From Amaurobius ferox (lineage: Eukaryota > Arthropoda > Arachnida > Araneae > Amaurobiidae): a stretch of DNA of 64,000 bases. The stretch is taken from NCBI GenBank assembly GCA_951213105.1, contig OX578149.1, forward strand, positions 1,612,001 to 1,676,000. The letters run 5' to 3'. The notes below the pieces were generated by a model, which was not told the origin of the DNA, made no database searches, and saw only the letters and a program-made list of their open reading frames with translations. Positions 9,590 through 61,646 of the stretch are shown here, in pieces; the stretch's first letter is position 1; each line of letters opens with the position of its first letter. Both the position numbers and the translations under genes were made by a program.

Positions 9590-12175
9590 TTTCTTTTCTA
9601 AACAATCCCTCCTGTGGAGAGAGAAAAATCTGTCAACGATCACTATCATACTACTATGGCTCTTAATTTATTGCACTTGTAGACGAGAATAAGCGCAATC
9701 CGCATTCCTATCTTCTTCCCCATGATCACCGATATGTTTTGATGCATGCCCTGGTGCAGCACATTCTGTCGGAGGTGACGATTCTCTCCATTGACATCAC
9801 CATGCCGAAATTTACACTCTGTACTAATAGGGCTTTCATCATTTGTACAACTGCCTTAAATTTTAAAGGTTAGCCTAGGGTCTGTCGGGTAGCCTGGGTG
9901 TTCAACACCCGCTATTTTTGGCTTGTGAATTTATTTAGTGGTTAAATATTCATTATAACATAGTTTGTATTATGATAAATTAAAAAAAAAAATTAATCTA
10001 TATGCAATAGTTTCGGATATACACTGCAGCTGATAAAGCCGAACGTTAATAAAGGGCATCAACCTTAGAAATGGGCTGAGGAGACTTTTACGAGCTGAAT
10101 TGTTTATATTGCAATGATGTATTGTTCTACTTTAACCTATACAGGGTGTCCCAAAAAGATTGAATTCATTACCTGTTGGAAATAAGTGGGTAATGTAAAT
10201 TGCAAAAATGTTATTGATTTTCAAATGTAATTTAATTAATTTTTAAAAAGTTACATTTTTTATATTTTTATACGACTCCCTTAGACAAATTTGGTCAATC
10301 AGAAAATTTTTAGTGCAACAAGATCATTAAAAAAACCTGCATATCTGTATCTTTAAAATCAGCTGAATTATGATAAAGGAAAATATCTGACTTATGCCAC
10401 CTTCCCGTACCAAGTGAAAGGCTGTTTCATCAGTGAAAATAGGGATGATAAACAAAATGACGATAGAAATTGTTTAAATAAAAAAAAGTAATTAAAAGTT
10501 CTTAATTATTGAAAAAATACTTAGTTATTGAAAAGTACTTAAGAATCCGGAATTCCATTGTGAGCCTACGTGAAATTCGCTAGAATGCCTCCTATGTATT
10601 ATCATCCAGTTTTATCTTTTTTGTGATATGTCACAAATTTACATTTTTAATTTGATATATATTCCCCATTCACAATGTTCAATTTTCAATTAAATATAAC
10701 TCACTCAATTTTAAAGATACAGATATGCGGATTTTTTATTTATTTATTTATTTATTTATTTATTATTATTTTTTGTTGTTGTTGCATTAAAAATAAAAGT
10801 TTTCTGATTGACCAAACTTGTCTAAAGGGGGTCATATAAAAATTTAAAAAATGTAACTTTTTTAAAATTAATGGGAGGATTATTTCATTAACGTAGTCTT
10901 ATTTCCTACCTTACTTTCAACATTTTTGCAATTTACATTGCTCACTTATCTCCAACAGGTAAAGAATTAAAGCGTGTTTCAATCTTTTTGGGACACCCTG
11001 TATATGCAGTGTCCATAAATGATTATAAGGTAAATATGAAGGAAGGCGGCAAAAATTACACATTTAAAGGCTACTATTCCACTCAGCCATACTTTTTATT
11101 AATTTTAAAACTATAGACTGCAAGAATTTTGCTTTTTATAAAGATTTGATATGCAACAGTTTCTCGCTCAAAGAAATTGTAGCAATTCAAAGTTAAATCT
11201 GTTTGATTTTCAATTTACCGGCAGGCAAAATTGATTCATGCCCCCCTCCCCCATTCTATTTAATCTGTAAAATTCTAGTAAATTGGTAAAATGGCATATG
11301 TGTTTAACTATAAAGTGATATTTTGCAAATAAAGAAACATCAAATTCTTTCAAAAGGATAAAAAATTGAATTGTTATGAAATAGACATATTGGTGAACTT
11401 TTACTATTAAAATTTTTGCTAAATTCGTAACGTCTGATAATATAGCGGAAAAAATGACCGAAATATCGGGGTCTCGATGATTTAAAAGTTACAATGTAAG
11501 TGATCAAAATATAGAAAAAAGAATATAAATTAATTAATAAGTGCCAAAACTCATCGGTAAATCCAAATAAATTAAAGAAAAATTAGTGGCCAACCTTCTT
11601 AAAAATTAAAGAAATTAATAAATAGTGGTAAATGCTTCAGCTTGGAAAAGTAAAAAAAAAAACAAAGAAATCAAGATGAAAAAACTTGAGAAACAGATTC
11701 GGAAATACTCTGTAATTTTGACAAAAAATTAAGCTGAAATAATCTTATAATGTAAGTGCTATAATGAAAGTGCTATATGGGTGGAAAATGACTTTTAAAT
11801 TGCCCCAAAAAGTATTTGAATGCTTCATGGTAAATGAATTTTATGATGATCTTTAAAACATTTTTAAAACACCTAAAAAACCTATAACGAAAAACACTGG
11901 CAAGATTTAAAACAAGGTTAAAAAAAATGAGTAATAGCAGCTGTTTAAAATATTCAAAAACTGGATAAATGAAAAATCTAAATATTGAAAACTTTAGAAT
12001 TTTTTTTTTTTTTTCCCTTAAATGGGAAAAGATGGGGATACTGACTATTGATTTACGGAAAATTTAGATTGAGAAAAAACGCCTAAAATAATTTTGAAAA
12101 TTTATTTAATGTCAAAAATGTAAGATAACAACAATAAATGTAATAAGTTTAGCAAAATAATATATGTAGAAATAA
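9590..12175 (-). repeat. Right arm of the large inverted repeat pair
   Basis: Reverse-complement counterpart of 5215-7330, lengthened by the 859-bp MITE at 10142-11000. Between the arms lie the Copia relic and about 475 bp (9115-9590) with no identified content. The outer ends (about 5220 and 12175) show no simple terminal motif or target duplication, so I cannot tell whether the whole 7 kb is one transposon with long terminal inverted repeats or two independent copies of one repeat. Confidence 0.7.
10142..11000. mobile_element. Foldback MITE, mariner-type ends (TA target)
   Basis: The element begins CAGGGTGTCCCAAAAAG and ends CTTTTTGGGACACCCTG, flanked on both sides by TA (10140-10141 and 11001-11002). 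The inverted repeats run inward for roughly 230 bp with divergence: the left GTTATTGATT...GACAAATTTGGTCAATCAG block is mirrored at 10800-10960. The central part (about 10390-10690) is unique and non-coding. The left arm of the large inverted repeat lacks this element, giving an approximate empty site near 6560. The ends and TA duplication are those of Tc1/mariner non-autonomous elements. Confidence 0.85.
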
Positions 12176-12322: not shown

Positions 12323-12603
12323 GAGGGCGCTGTAACCCAGTGGTTAGCTTGCGGAAAGTGCACTCAGTAGGCCCGGGTTCGATTCTTGCCACTGCCAAAA
12401 CTGACGCCGTGTTCATGCGGAGTACAATCGTGTTAAACATGTGGGTCCGTAAGTCCTTCCGAGAGATTGGTGGTAGGGGAAGGAAGGTACAGTCCCTGTG
12501 GATGCCTCCCCCACTGGGTTCCGGTCTAAATTGGGTGGCACCTCCCGGACGTCCAAACAGTTACCTTACACCTTTCTAGTAGGTCAGATGGTCTGGGTCT
12601 CAA
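12323..12603 (+). mobile_element. tRNA-derived SINE, about 280 bp
   Basis: The head resembles a tRNA gene. An A-box-like stretch TAACCCAGTGGTTAG starts at about 12333, and a B box GGTTCGATTC lies at 12376-12385 within CCCGGGTTCGATTCTTGCC. Spacing is right for RNA polymerase III internal promoters. The body continues through a GC-rich unrelated region and ends GATGGTCTGGGTCT. The last 55 or so bases (from GGACGTCC at 12547) are the same domain that occurs alone at 15935, 49656, 55438 and 61476. It lies against a Copia pol fragment (12604 on); no target-site duplication was recognised, so the exact ends are uncertain. Confidence 0.75.
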
Positions 12604-12830
12604 ACATTGCACACAGTTTATCAAATCGAACTTGAGACAATGGTTTTGTCAAAATGTCTATGATTTGATTATCTCCTGGAACATGTTTAATATTCAGTCC
12701 ACCTTCCAGGATTCTTCCCCAGCAGCCTTCGTTCTGGACAAGGTACCCTACTGGGATGCTAATGAGGGAGAAATAGGCCAGAGGTCTCATCTGGTTTTGA
12801 AATCACTGGGCATTGGCTTAGTTTTGTAGG
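12604..12830 (-). pseudogene. Copia pol C-terminal fragment
   Basis: The minus-strand reading gives NIKHVPGDNQIIDILTKPL followed by RFDKLCAM, the conserved C-terminal end of Copia RNase H ('hVp.d.qiADilTKpL'). Upstream residues (12700-12790) do not match the usual RNase H and may be frame-shifted. The fragment is bounded on the left by the SINE. No LTR follows, so this is an isolated relic. Confidence 0.75.
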
Positions 12831-15768: not shown

Positions 15769-15934
15769 TTTTTCAAATATATAAACTTTTTTAAAATCCC
15801 TCAAACAGTAGATTAGCTACTATTGAGTTTCAACTGTGTGGCGATGTTTAATATTTAAAATTTTGATACAATCTATAAACTTTTTGAAAAATACCTCAAT
15901 CAGTAGATTAGATACTATTGAGTTTCAACTGTGT
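15769..15934. repeat. Two-copy direct duplication beside Copia 3' end
   Basis: A block of about 95 bp (TATAAACTTTTT...CAGTAGATTAGCTACTATTGAGTTTCAACTGTGT) occurs twice, about 15780-15840 and 15875-15934, with a few differences. It follows the Copia stop closely and may be element 3' sequence. The second copy's end was the target of the short insertion at 15935. Confidence 0.7.
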
Positions 15935-15990
15935 TGAAGACCCAGACCGTCCAACTCATCCGAAGACAAAGAGCATCCATTTGGATGGCC
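15935..15990 (-). mobile_element. Mini-SINE insertion A (56 bp, 16-bp TSD)
   Basis: A 56-bp insertion flanked by perfect 16-bp direct repeats TGAGTTTCAACTGTGT (15919-15934 and 15991-16006). An uninserted copy of the target (TTGAGTTTCAACTGTGTGG) is present in the neighbouring duplication at about 15824. On the minus strand the insert runs GGCCATCC... to ...GGACGGTCTGGGTCTTCA, matching the 3' end of the SINE at 12547-12600. A 14-16 bp TSD is typical of LINE-machinery target-primed retrotransposition. Confidence 0.85.
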
Positions 15991-16242
15991 TGAGTTTCAA
16001 CTGTGTGGCGATGTTTTTGATAAAGGATTTAAATGATTCTCTTGCTACTAGAATAGAGATCTTTTAGATATTTTTTTTATCATGTTATTGTATCATGAAT
16101 GTGTTTATACATAATAATTAACATTGTCTACAACTTGTTTATACATAAAAATTTTATTCCAAAACTCAATAATCTTCACTTTTAATGAAATATGAAATGC
16201 TTTACTGTGTTCTTTCGACACAATGTGCAGGAAGGGACCACT

Positions 16243-40707: not shown

Positions 40708-41620
40708 ACAAGACACAGACATCATTCAGTGGAGTTCCAAAGAAGGATGGATGAAAACAGAATTTTTGCCATATCTTTATGTTGCTACAGGATTGAGTAT
40801 CCTCATTTTTTCTTGTAGCTTTGTCACCCACGTTGAATCATACTATTGTTTAGGTATGGAATCGTAAAACATGTCTGATGGTAAAGTTAATGTCTTACCA
40901 TATACCAATTCCACACAAGAAGCTTAGATGTCATTTTTGAGAGTCGTTCGAATTCCTAAGAGTGTGATGGGAAGTTTGTCTGTCCAATTGGCATTGTGAT
41001 GTGCTTTTAATGCACATTTTAGGTGTCTGTGGAAACATTCAATTATTCTGATGGTAAAGTTAATGCCTTACCATATATCAATTCCACACAAGAGGCTTGG
41101 ATGTCATTTTTGAGAGTTGTTCGAATTCCTAAGAGTGTGATAGGAAGTGTGTCTGTCCAATTGTCATTGTCATTTGCTTTTAATGCACATTTTAGGTGTC
41201 TGTCGAAACGTTCAATTATTCCATTTGAAATAGGGTGGTATGCTGTTGAACGAATGCGATTTGTACCCATCATTGTATTAAGTTGTTGGAAAAGAGAGGA
41301 TTCCAGTTGTCTTCCTTGATCTGTTGTCAAGATTGCTGGTACTCCAAAACGCGAAATCCAGACAGAAAATAATGCTTTACACACAGTTTCAGCTTTTATA
41401 TCTGGAATTGGTACAATTTCGTGCCATCTTATGAAGCGGTCGACTATTGTTAAACAATAAATGTTATCATTAGATGGTGGAAATGGGCCAATTATGTCTA
41501 GATGTATGTGTGCAAAACGTGAGTCTGGGAGAGCAAATGTGCCAATCGGATTTTTGATGCACTTTTAATCGTTGGCAAGGAATGCAACTGTCATGATGGA
41601 AAAGACTTCCATGTTTTTAA
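40708..41620 (-). pseudogene. Gypsy integrase (piece 2)
   Basis: Minus strand: CIPCQR (zinc-finger end, about 41590), HIHLDIIGPFP (catalytic Asp, about 41500), TIVDRFIRWHE, FGVPAILTTDQGRQLES (second Asp, about 41330), STAYHPISNGIIERFDRHLK (Glu, about 41230), then VELIYGKALTLPSE and a C-terminal stretch (VFIHPSLELH near 40730). One frameshift lies near 41560. A 173-bp segment is tandemly duplicated (40874-41046 and 41047-41219). The integrase N-terminus, RNase H and late RT are deleted between about 41620 and 41690. Confidence 0.85.
40874..41219. repeat. 173-bp tandem duplication inside Gypsy integrase
   Basis: TCTGATGGTAAAGTTAATG starts at 40874 and again at 41047. The two copies differ at several positions (for example AAGAAGCTTAG versus AAGAGGCTTGG), so the duplication is old. 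It repeats the codons around the catalytic Glu and the domain after it. Confidence 0.85.
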
Positions 41621-49103: not shown

Positions 49104-49939
49104 TTGCAATACATGGTAATGTATAGGGAAAGAATTGGAATTATGCCAAGTTTTCGACGGATCTTCATGTTTTGGGACCTGTAGTATACGAAAAAGATAT
49201 TTTTAGTGTATCTGTCTGTCTGTGCAATGTATATACCCACTCTAACTCAAAAAAGTAATGGACCAAATTTCATAAAATTTGGTAGGGAGGCACCTTTAAC
49301 TAATCAGCACCAGGGTCACACTTGAGTGTGACCTTGCATTTGTGTGACCTTGAACCTGCATTTTTTGTGAAATGGCCTTAAAAAATGACCTGTAGCCACT
49401 CTACTTCAAAAACTAATAAATCAAATTTTACAAAATTTGGTAGATAAGTCACTTATGGGTTACTCTGGTACTGATTAGATTTTAGTACAATTCGGAAAAA
49501 GATAACCTGCCTTTTTTACGAAATGGCCCACAAACATCGTCAAAATCTAAAGTAAAAGACTACGTATGCTGAAATATATCCATTAAATGCATGTTTTATA
49601 CATAATTTTTAACAATGAAAAGAATAAGATCAACTCCATTACACTATAGCCTCTCCGGCTGCCCTTACAGCTGCTCTATGTCCTCGGATGAGCTGGACGG
49701 TCTGGGCTATCGACACTGTAGCCTTTCTCAAGATATTTTAGGTTTTTGCATTTTTGCTGTGCCACTTTTGAAAATAAGTCCAGTTGCCAAGTGAGAACGA
49801 AAATTGAATTAAAAATGTAAATTCAGTGTCATTTTAAATAATGATGGATGTTATTTTGTGCCATTAAACTCAATATAATAAATTATTGAAGAAATAAAGT
49901 AAACATGGATATGAATCTGCAGGGAAAGTCATGTGCTGC
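49104..49939 (-). mobile_element. Helentron-like element H6 (minus), carrying a mini-SINE
   Basis: Reverse complement of the H1 subfamily. The minus strand starts GGATATAGGCAGCACATGAC, then TTTCCCTGCAGATTC (49939-49907), and ends CTTTCCCTATACATTACCAT, TGTATTGC near 49104. The terminal hairpin arm (AGGGAAAGT) is missing, so the right end is truncated. CTGTCTGTCTGTGC near 49208 is the microsatellite. The 58-bp insertion at 49656 splits it. Confidence 0.8.
49656..49713 (+). mobile_element. Mini-SINE insertion C (58 bp) in Helentron H6
   Basis: CGGCTGCCC ... GGACGGTCTGGGCTATCGA, flanked by CACTATAGCCTCTC (49642-49655) and CACTGTAGCCTTTCTC (49714-49729), a diverged target duplication of 14-16 bp. 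The homologous place in H1 (24370-24405, reverse complement CATTAGGACTAGCCGTTCTC) is uninterrupted and single-copy, giving an empty-site comparison. This is the most diverged copy and probably the oldest. Confidence 0.8.
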
Positions 49940-55423: not shown

Positions 55424-55661
55424 GAGAGCCAACATGTTGAAGACCCAGACCGTCCGACTCTTCCAAGGGACTTAAGCAACCATTTGGATGGCCGAGAGCC
55501 AACATGTTGAAGACCCAGACCGTCCGACTCTTCCAAGGGACTTAAGCAACCATTTGGATGGCCGAGAGCCAACATGTTGAAGACCCAGACCGTCCGACTC
55601 TTCCAAGGGACTTAAGCAACCATTTGGATGGCCGAGAGCCAACATGTTGAAGACCCAGACC
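55424..55661 (-). repeat. Mini-SINE B: 70-bp tandem array (56-bp unit + 14-bp TSD)
   Basis: Three identical 56-bp units (55438-55493, 55508-55563, 55578-55633) and a 14-bp partial unit (55648-55661), each preceded by the same 14 bases GAGAGCCAACATGT. On the minus strand each unit runs GGCCATCC to GGACGGTCTGGGTCTTCA, as in copy A. The simplest reading is one insertion that made a 14-bp target duplication, then tandem expansion of insert plus duplication. The units appear identical, so expansion is recent. No coding meaning: 70 is not a multiple of three. Confidence 0.85.
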
Positions 55662-58183: not shown

Positions 58184-59706
58184 CATACCTGCCAAATCTC
58201 CCGATTTTTCCGGGAGTCTCCCGACTTTTGAGGCAATCTCCCGAACTTTTACAATAATTAGAAAAAATCCCTATCCGGCCTCCGGATTACTAACGAAATT
58301 CTCCGGCGTTTTTTGTTGGAAATTTATCAATTAACCAGACATGGTATAATTCCTCGAAAACACCAATTTTCCGCATTTTTAGCACTGATTTTTATCATTC
58401 CCGGGATCGTAGCAAATCCATAATACAATGCAGGATAATGCCAATCAAATTAACGGAGATTTACGGCCGCGTGTATTGTAAATTAAGATCTCGATCGCTT
58501 ATTTTATGAAAGTAATAAACATACTTCTTCAAAGGTTATTGAGCATAAATCGCTAAAATGTTATTTTGTTCATTAATTTCGCATAAACACTGCGATTGCG
58601 CAATTTAGTTTGTTCTCATGAATCGCCGAGAGTACAATAGTATCTTTTTCCATCCATCTCAATCTTCTACATATTGCATTTTTGATTGACTAAACTAGCT
58701 TATTTTCATATTCTGATTAATTATTATGGTTAATTTCTTAATTATTTTCACATAAATAATGCGATTGCGCAACTCAGTTGCTTCGCGTGAATTGCCGAGA
58801 GTAAGTTAGTATCTTTTTCCATCCATCACCATCATTTAAATGTTGCATATTAGATCAGCTAAACTAGCTTATTTTTATATTCTGATTAATTATTGTGGTT
58901 AATTTCTTATTTATTTTCACATAAATAGTGCGATTGCGCAATTCAGTTACTTCGCGTGAATTGCCAAGAGTACGTTAGTATCTTTTTCCATCCATCTCCA
59001 TCATTTAAATGTTGCATATTAGATTGACTAAACTAGCTTATTTTCATATTATGGCTAATTATTAAGGTTAATTTTTTGATTATTTTTGCATAATACAAAT
59101 TTTTCTATTTTGAAAAATCGGTATGAACTCTGTGAAGGGATAGTGAAGAATTTAGTAAGGAGTTCTTAAAAAAAGCAAAAAGAGCTACTACTTTATTTTT
59201 AAGTAGTAAGAAGGATTGAATTTGACATTTTTTAATTATATAGAACTTTTACGTGCTGTTACTTACCAAAAGATTTCTTTCATTCAATATTTTATCTGCA
59301 GAGAAGTGTTTCTGTGTCAAAGACATGTGAATGATTATTAAACAGTAACCAATGACATTTTTCTTTATGCATCATATTTAGTGTAATGAACATTGTTATA
59401 GACTCTGATGAGAATAACTCTAACGAATGTGCTTATTTTTTAAAAGATGATTTAATTCTTTTGTATTCGTTGAAATTAAATTGTGTTTATAGATACAATA
59501 CAGATTTTTTATCATATTTGTCTATTTTTTATGGTGCAGTTTTGTAGTAGAGGGAAAAAATCCCTATTCTGTCTTGAAAATTCCCTTTTATGCTTTCTGT
59601 AAAAAAAAGAAATTGTTATCGCGCTGTGTGATTTTTCGATTTTTATCGCGAATTGCAAATATTTAAAAATCTCCCTAATTTTCATTTTCCAAGGTTGGCA
59701 GCTATG
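58184..59706. mobile_element. Unclassified DNA transposon, 6-bp TSD
   Basis: 1523 bp with ends CATACCTGCCAA and (other strand) CATAGCTGCCAA, flanked by GTATTG on both sides (58178-58183 and 59707-59712). The sister repeat copy at about 56478 (GTAGTATTATGATGAATG) shows the site without insertion. The left subterminal region has a run of TCTCCCGA/CGGGAG words. The interior contains a 169-bp tandem repeat and no transposase. TIR plus a 6-bp duplication indicates cut-and-paste transposition; superfamilies I recall with TSDs of about 6 bp (Dada, IS3EU) are possible but unproven. Confidence 0.75.
58577..59092. repeat. 169-bp tandem repeat, three units
   Basis: GCGATTGCGCAA occurs at 58592, 58761 and 58930. 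Each unit continues with TTGCCGAGAGTA or TTGCCAAGAGTA, then TAGTATCTTTTTCCATCCATC, TTGCATATTAGAT and CTAAACTAGCTTATTT. Units 2 and 3 are more alike than unit 1. The array lies inside the 58184-59706 transposon. Confidence 0.85.
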
Positions 59707-60597: not shown

Positions 60598-61646
60598 TAG
60601 AAAATTTTACGTGTAACTGGAAAGATCGAAGAAGGGCGAAAAATAACAGATGTTGCCAGTGTGTTTGACATCGCCCCCACAGAGTTGTTTCATGGCTGTG
60701 GTAAGCATATAAAACAACTGGAATGTGTAGCAAGCATCACGGGAAAGGTCGTGTTAGAAGTACGACGCCTGCAGGAGACAGGTACATTGTCCTATCGGTA
60801 AAAAGGGACCAGCGCACCACAGCTCAGCAGGTTACAAATCAGTTTTTTGTTACCACAGGACAGAGAATCTCCCAAAAAACTGTAGCCAGACGTTTGGGAG
60901 AAGGAGGACGATGCGCCTGTAGACCTGTTGTGTGTCCCATTATCCAGACTGCACCATACCGTATGTTTGCAATGGTGTCATGAGCATCGCAATTGGACCA
61001 AACAGGACTGGGCTTGCGTACTATTCTCAGATGAGAGTAGGTTCAGTCCGTCATCAGATTCTGGACTCCAACTGATTTGGCGTGAGAGTGGTACTGCTTA
61101 TCATCCAGGAAAGGGACCAATATCTGACATACAGTATCATGGTATGGGCCGGCATCATGATCAATGGCCACACACCCCTACATGTGGTTGCAACTGAAAC
61201 TATGACCAGCCAACGATACATTGATGAAGTTCTACTGCCTCATGTTCGCCTTTCCCGTGGTGCTGTCGGTGATAAATTTGTTTTATGGATGGCAATGCGC
61301 CATGTCATTGAACACTCGCTGTTCCGGATTGTCTAGTCAGTGAAGGTATTCAATGCTTTGTATGGCCAGCATTTTCTCCAGATCTAAACCCCATTGAAAA
61401 TATTTGGGATGCTTTGGAAAGACTAATTTCTGGTCGAAAATATCCTCCAACAAACAAGAACACCCTCATCTGTGCCTGGCCACCCAAACTGCTGCTGTAA
61501 ACCTTTGGGTTAGTCGGGTGGTCTGGATTTTCGACCCTCATCCGTGCATTAAAAGAGGAGTGGGATAACTTGACTCAACAGCTGTTGGATAATGTTGTAC
61601 AAAGCATGACACGGAGCGTGGAATATTGCATTGCACTCCACGGTTA
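60598..61646 (+). pseudogene. Tc1-like transposase pseudogene
   Basis: Frames in order: helix-turn-helix start VTGKIEEGRKITDVASVFDI (60612-60670), GKGRVRSTTPAGDRYIVLSV, QRTTAQQVTNQF, TGQRISQKTVARRL (second helix-turn-helix), then HEHRNWTKQDWACVLFSDES (first catalytic Asp, about 61030), MVWAGIMINGHTPLHVV, TSQRYIDEVLLPHVRL, FMDGNAPCH (second Asp kept), FSPDLNPIENIWDAL (Glu, about 61390), and after an insertion IRALKEEWDNLTQQL to a TAA at 61646. Several one-base shifts inactivate it. The 58-bp mini-SINE D interrupts the last 60 codons. Terminal repeats were not identified. Confidence 0.9.
61476..61533 (+). mobile_element. Mini-SINE insertion D (58 bp) in Tc1 transposase
   Basis: CTGGCCACCCAAACTGCTGC ... 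GGGTGGTCTGGATTTTCG, flanked by ACCCTCATCTGTGC (61462-61475) and ACCCTCATCCGTGC (61534-61547), a 14-bp duplication with one change. Removing the insert and one duplicate restores the transposase reading (NTL, then IRALKEEW), which proves the insertion independently of the repeat comparison. In this copy the end segments GGCCACCC and GGGTGGTC can pair at all 8 positions (one G-U). Confidence 0.9.

Follow-up and report, generated by a model that had tools for sequence, protein, structure and literature searches.

Short inserts in the spider Amaurobius ferox as probable hairpin-only products of a LINE 3' tail

What kind of element is an insert of under sixty bases that carries a target duplication of its own? 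The question was raised by a 64,000-nucleotide stretch of the Amaurobius ferox genome (assembly GCA_951213105.1, contig OX578149.1, positions 1,612,001 to 1,676,000 of the forward strand; hereafter the window), in which a preliminary description, made from the letters alone, had placed four inserts of 56-58 bp and proposed them as a mini-SINE family. Direct reading of the window confirmed all four at the positions and lengths given. Read in one sense, they share the start GGCYRYCC and the end GGTCTGG...TCR(A) in four cases out of four, and every insert contains a unit of 57 nt, running from GGC to TCRA and preceded on the 5' side by 0-2 additional bases. The first and third lie on the minus strand and the second and fourth on the plus strand. 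Each also has the separate target duplication that had been claimed for it. The first unit, e1 (GGCCATCC...TCTTCAA), occupies 15934..15990 (minus) and is bordered by a duplication at 15919..15934 with its second copy at 15991-16006 (16/16 positions matching); a matching stretch of host sequence lacking the insert, at 15823..15848 (plus), supplies an empty-site copy. The second, e2, at 49657..49713 (plus), lies between CACTATAGCCTCTC and CACTGTAGCCTTTC (12/14), and the fourth, e4, at 61478..61534 (plus), between ACCCTCATCTGTGC and ACCCTCATCCGTGC (13/14). The third, e3, at 55437..55493 (minus; duplication 14/14), is the first full copy of a tandem array at 55424..55661 (minus) with a period of 70, that is a 14-bp target plus a 56-bp unit, 3.4 copies and 100% matches. 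This array holds three full units and, at its far end, a 14-nt stub adjoining unrelated DNA; as the site is a tandem array the e3 duplication is itself repeated, and as the units are identical the array looks like amplification. Two other tandem repeats were seen in the window, at 58560-59093 (169 bp, 3.2 copies) and 40874-41221 (173 bp, 2 copies). A Gypsy protein encoded in the window matches an unnamed protein best (58% identity); among the 120 of 337 matches listed, the best with a name come from the spider Araneus ventricosus (44-51%), and a tick protein reaches 33%, which makes an arachnid genome probable. A weak match at 9873-9905 (E 0.12 to 1.8), where no duplication was found, was excluded.

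A profile of the four inserts finds a fifth relative in the window, at 12547-12604 (plus, E 4e-10), and this relative is the last 58 bases of a longer element at 12325..12604 (plus), a tRNA-derived SINE with its head, which we call SINE-A. The window copy has A- and B-box-like sites within its first 61 bases. The family is ~287 bp long with a (CAA)n tail, occurs in loci L010, L017, L021, L025 and others, and contributed 11 tail-bearing copies to 200 kb of random sequence, sampled as 20 stretches, each of 10 kb, taken from parts of 17 contigs. At L023 (1961-3624, minus) there is also a tandem run of SINE-A heads without the tail, with a period of 245 bp and seven copies.

The same hairpin module ends LINEs. 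Locus L017 contains a reverse transcriptase (RT) ORF (RVT_1, 2e-22), which is only partial, at the locus edge, and an RNase H ORF (RNase_H, 2e-14), with a 3' UTR downstream that the hairpin terminates; L009 and L021 contain related LINE ends, the RNase_H part of the L021 LINE scoring 2e-4, under Pfam's own cut-off. A further LINE copy at L074, of ~860 bp and flanked by ACGGTGATGCATG and ACGGTGATACATG, has an ORF end with 59% identity to the L017 ORF across 88 amino acids, and its hairpin is identical over 57/57 bases to two hairpin-only units (hereafter minis), L066 and L070. LINEs that carry RT and RNase H ORFs terminate in the hairpin unit on their 3' side, and so does a tRNA-derived SINE. 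The proposal of a separate SINE family was accordingly not borne out, the unit being a LINE 3'-terminal hairpin by the match of one LINE copy to two minis. SINE-A as the sole parent was rejected, since it has a (CAA)n tail and a different hairpin whereas the L074 LINE fits at every base, and a 'Family B', considered as another SINE, was rejected as such and represents the 3' terminus of the L017/L009 LINE (LINE-B). The identity expected of a truncated LINE copy is therefore seen for L066 and L070, whereas e1, e3 and e4 match the L074 hairpin at only 46, 42 and 42 of 57 bases, and e2 matches it at 50. Across the other 12 units compared with this hairpin the range is 35-55/57, the L021 LINE giving 35, and from these identities other LINE subfamilies are the likely sources of e1, e3 and e4; their parents were not found among the LINE tails compared. 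No intact LINE was seen among the loci examined, and the LINE remnants of the window (29-30 kb and 37-40 kb) have no hairpin behind them. Two side observations concern these LINEs: the LINE-B copies at L009 3700-4750 and L017 6850-7345 run into one and the same host sequence (CAGACCTCCAACATC | TTTGCACTAACCTACAGGG and similar), as a site-specific element would, and the region just downstream of a LINE copy at L073 (285-425) is palindrome-like, with miRNA-family matches on both strands under the gathering scores.

The 57-nt unit has a definite architecture, with an 8-bp stem, two inner helices, a loop (UUCG in several copies) and a tail resembling TGGGYTTTCRA. On an alignment of 30 hairpins, made up of 22 units from minis or LINE L021, six SINE-A tails and two LINE-B tails, we tested a structure of 16 pairs that we had named ourselves; the controls were that structure slid along by 1-3 columns, and 500 shuffles. 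In the named structure 94.8% of 480 cells were paired, against 22-45% when slid, while the shuffles retained 83%; the covariation score was 0.497, against 0.055-0.114 slid and 0.254 shuffled. Changes on both sides of a pair occurred at 9 of the 16 pairs in this alignment, and pair types were varied, with four at positions 7/41 and six at 20/35. Further pair types were matched by 3 of the 500 shuffles, and the remaining four measures by none. RNAalifold, unprompted, recovers 14 of the 16 named pairs. The unit is a conserved RNA stem-loop kept by compensatory changes. Directly before the stem stands CCC in 14 of 15 parent hairpins, and in five of six folds it extends the stem as CCC/GGG, the exception being an e2-like unit with TTTCCC. 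Since CCC can pair with the GGG that follows the stem, the stem probably has its structural base 3 nt further upstream than GGCC.

The central observation is where the inserts begin. We scored 49 units, comprising the four in the window, four from the random stretches and, for the rest, query matches and their neighbours, with the LINE copy L073 included; most were found by hairpin queries, to which much shorter copies would be invisible. Left out were L001 (which is e2 of the window), L029 (the same as L008), L031 (the same as L030), the two extra copies and stub of the e3 array, 23 additional copies of the L006 insertion in an amplified repeat, the short units of L068 (112, 326, 373, 418), short or degenerate units in L005 (1400-1445, 1055-1095) and L002 (1131-1169), a partial SINE-A tail in L035, and every SINE-A and LINE-B/L021 hairpin. 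A clear duplication (score of at least 8) flanks 41 of the 49, so that the view of these sequences as retroposed inserts with duplications of their own was upheld. Of 8000 random places of the same geometry, with a wider offset range permitted than in the scoring of the 49 units, 172 scored at least 10 and 359 at least 8; 98 of the high-scoring random places carry the top score, as expected from tandem repeats or from the units themselves. The eight units without a clean gap-free duplication are L034:406, L062, L063, L064, L065, L068:254, L070 and the LINE copy L073, although imperfect repeats are visible by eye at L063 and L070.

When the 5' ends of the 41 units with a duplication are plotted, 39 fall 0-8 nt upstream of the hairpin (GGCC) in the available sample. 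The gap from duplication to GGCC measured 0 bases in two units, 1 in five, 2 in fourteen, 3 to 7 in three each and 8 in three, with one outlier at 13 and one at -6, inside the hairpin. Starts inside the hairpin also exist at L068 (112, 326 and 373, with a SINE-A piece at 418), at L040:107 and in one copy of SINE-A (L024); the border is accordingly a strong peak without being absolute. The argument that a common 5' border speaks against random truncation therefore stands. Truncated LINE copies, often described as dead on arrival, keep the 3' end, lose the 5' part, carry target duplications and have spread 5' ends; the minis share with them the 3' end and the duplications, but their 5' ends stack at a structural border in place of running across many lengths. 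Other lengths do occur for LINE-B and L021, at ~118 bp, ~231 bp, ~0.7 kb and >1.5 kb.

Counting by insert gives a similar picture. The window and the 20 random 10-kb stretches together hold 13 LINE-type inserts ending in the hairpin, of which eight are hairpin-only, four in the window and four in the random stretches (two of the latter sharing one site). This is 8/14 if the two hairpins of L021, taken here as one, are counted separately, and it should be considered that the window had been chosen for its inserts; the random 200 kb alone gives 4/9. The five longer inserts are those at L009 (~118 bp and ~0.7 kb), L017 (~231 bp and >2 kb) and L021 (>1.5 kb). With lengths log-uniform from 30 to 2000, eight of 13 in the hairpin-length band would have a probability of 1e-8. 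Weak model matches in the random stretches at L010:7306 (E 0.016), L025:4697 and L021:9576 were chance-like on reading and were not counted.

We consider it probable, with good confidence, that the inserts arose by retrotransposition of just the 3' tail hairpin of a stringent-type LINE, probably from trimmed tail RNA; as a class, these hairpin-only LINE-tail insertions are real and well bounded. The form of tail that defines the stringent type, a conserved stem-loop at the very 3' terminus of a LINE and its SINE, is found here, and LINE ORF2 proteins of this type bind the 3' stem-loop of their own RNA (PMC4176376). By extension, the LINE protein would bind the tail hairpin and reverse transcription would be primed at nicked ACAC-type sites. 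The template for a mini may be the short piece left at the 3' end of a LINE RNA once trimming, for example by a 5'-3' exonuclease, has reached the hairpin to which the protein is bound, and the RT would run off the end of this trimmed template at the hairpin base. Inserts of 57-66 bases suggest that the tail alone is enough for copying and insertion. The 0-8 ragged nucleotides at the 5' end, often letters of the LINE 3' UTR (CC, TTTCCC, TTTTTCCC), would seem to be explained better by trimming than by a fixed start or by self-cleavage.

A sharp border may also be set by the enzyme, and the preliminary description had offered a preferred RT stop as one option. On that account the whole LINE RNA serves as template and an RT that holds the tail hairpin drops off after copying its 5' strand. 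Arrest predicts 5' ends that scatter by a few nucleotides, as they do, and the minis share with the L074 LINE the letters upstream of the hairpin (for example TTTTTCCC in L072), which indicates that longer RNAs exist. RTs usually pause on entering a hairpin, however, and not once it has been copied. SINE-A provides a control here, as it ends in the same module. Among 12 copies from the window and the random stretches, ten have the head and the one at L016 starts ~40 nt upstream of the hairpin; for the copy at L024:8938 a 13/14 duplication places the start inside the hairpin, although the alignment itself begins at the hairpin base and the case is debatable. By duplications, then, SINE-A starts at the hairpin base in 0 of 12 copies against 8 of 13 for the LINE-type inserts (Fisher p 0.0016; 0.011 with L024 counted as a base start; 0.026 or 0.13 for the random part alone), a comparison in small numbers that is suggestive and not firm, and to which the caveat applies that SINE-A may use another LINE of the group. 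That SINE-A copies start elsewhere suggests that the border is set by the template and not by the enzyme. The RT stop survives as an option, which we regard as rather unlikely. A template with its 5' end at the hairpin base is favoured over it, since an RT working from the 3' end should run on freely once the stem's 5' strand has been copied, and since SINE-A starts elsewhere.

It is also worth asking whether some minis are transcribed in their own right, as ~60-nt RNAs made from outside promoters that breed true and borrow the LINE machinery. Several distinct mini subfamilies with compensatory stem changes would be in keeping with such a minimal retroposon. So would the e2-like matches: two e2-like genome queries returned 729 and 1386 candidates, of which 40 were scored in each, and among the 27 units so obtained all 20 with a duplication were of hairpin length, though longer copies would match equally. 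Yet one subfamily has an exact LINE parent, the bases upstream in many minis are LINE 3' UTR letters with no fixed start, and the unit has no complete promoter. On this last point the preliminary description had stated that the unit has no A or B box. With up to two mismatches allowed, no B-box-like site occurs in e1-e4 and a complete Pol III promoter is absent, as it said, but an A-box-like site is present at position 29 in each of the four; the same looseness gives six in the SINE. The four units therefore do not have the internal A and B boxes of a SINE. Taken together we find true-breeding minis an improbable explanation. The minis have duplications (41/49) and a tail common to a LINE, and their mobilisation may be in cis or in trans; 'mini-SINE' is a fair nickname for the behaviour of an insert that is without a SINE's defining promoter.

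Two explanations outside LINE biology were weighed. A short DNA transposon or MITE leaving 14-16 bp duplications would account for exact duplications and fixed ends, but here the 3' tail is fixed while the 5' end is ragged, and the tail is shared with a LINE and a tRNA-derived SINE. The stem moreover stops ~10 nt before the 3' end, so the unit's ends are not inverted repeats of each other, which counts against such an element, and we find it scarcely credible. The inserts could instead be pieces of an element with a self-cleaving ribozyme, HDV-like or hammerhead, in which the cut would set the 5' end; this would explain a sharp 5' end, and by eye a stem with initial GG at the extreme 5' end resembles HDV. 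Against it, the partner strand of P2 is missing by eye and the 5' ends are ragged across 0-8 nt. Rfam gave no HDV or hammerhead match at E 10 in the window, nothing over the hairpin units of L073 and L066, and named no such ribozyme in L030 and L034. A ribozyme origin is thus very improbable. A trypanosome mitochondrial rRNA match at L030 10-278, spanning a unit, has an E of 6.4, far under the gathering score, and was taken as chance.

The nearest relatives in kind of the tail described here are those of UnaL2, ZfL2-1 and ZfL2-2 (PMC4176376), with which it has in common a 3'-terminal stem-loop present in LINEs and in a tRNA-derived SINE of one genome, presumably as the RT recognition signal. 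The A. ferox case differs from these in that the bare stem-loop, without body or head, is a frequent insert, in that the LINEs carry an RNase H domain, and in that no Rfam family names the stem-loop, either in the window or in loci L066, L073, L030 and L034. Compared with SINE-A, the minis are likewise non-autonomous, have the same 3' module and use the same target sites (L005, L068), but they are without head, B box and body. In the literature searched, judged by titles and abstract openings, no account of hairpin-only or mini-SINE inserts was found.

Four minis in 200 kb of a 3.56-Gb genome would correspond to ~7 x 10^4 copies, with a Poisson range of ~2 x 10^4 to 2 x 10^5. Abundance among query matches is a different matter, as one passenger mini inside a genome-wide amplified repeat accounts for 24 of the 53 loci collected at e2-like matches (L006, L033, L036, L037, L041-L051, L053-L060 and L071). 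We tentatively propose, as a stronger reading that falls somewhat short of an even chance, that the bare ~60-nt hairpin is a competent substrate and the commonest product of this LINE group, arising from trimmed, protein-protected tail RNA that enters target-primed reverse transcription, present at ~10^4-10^5 copies and inserted time after time next to earlier copies at one ACAC-type site. LINE 3' stem-loops are known to be required, and so large a number of hairpin-only inserts would demonstrate at the level of a genome that they are sufficient as well and would fix the minimal template size. If this is true, the bare hairpin would be the smallest retroposon known to us, and the footprint of a minimal LINE RNA-protein complex. 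The minis also offer a natural experiment that reveals which stem pairs and tail letters the RT demands, where the endonuclease cuts (mostly ACAC) and where the template RNA starts. There is an operational consequence too, in that repeat libraries based on longer consensus sequences may leave inserts of ~57-66 bp unmasked.

The target sites themselves show a preference. Among 23 target duplications, listed with loci L061-L073 excluded and the register set by hand, 18 start with ACA and 16 with ACAC. The R1-clade LINEs Waldo and Mino use AC-rich targets with a preference for ACAC or ACAY; the preference here is similar, in many ACAC contexts and not only in microsatellites, and the comparison is by target only. 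Units of different subfamilies adjoin one another, separated by copies of one target, as pairs in L004, L008 and L015 and as fours in L030 and L034, and SINE-A and minis occur at one target site in L035, L040 and L068. As the units differ, these pile-ups look like repeated insertion at one site and not like tandem amplification. The most extended stack lies in L005 (the G000:C7:132762582 region; minus, 850-2200), where ~nine successive insertions, of SINE-A and several mini subfamilies, are set apart by copies of a single target, ACATAATATAATATAT, so that the locus naturally documents insertion after insertion at the same site.
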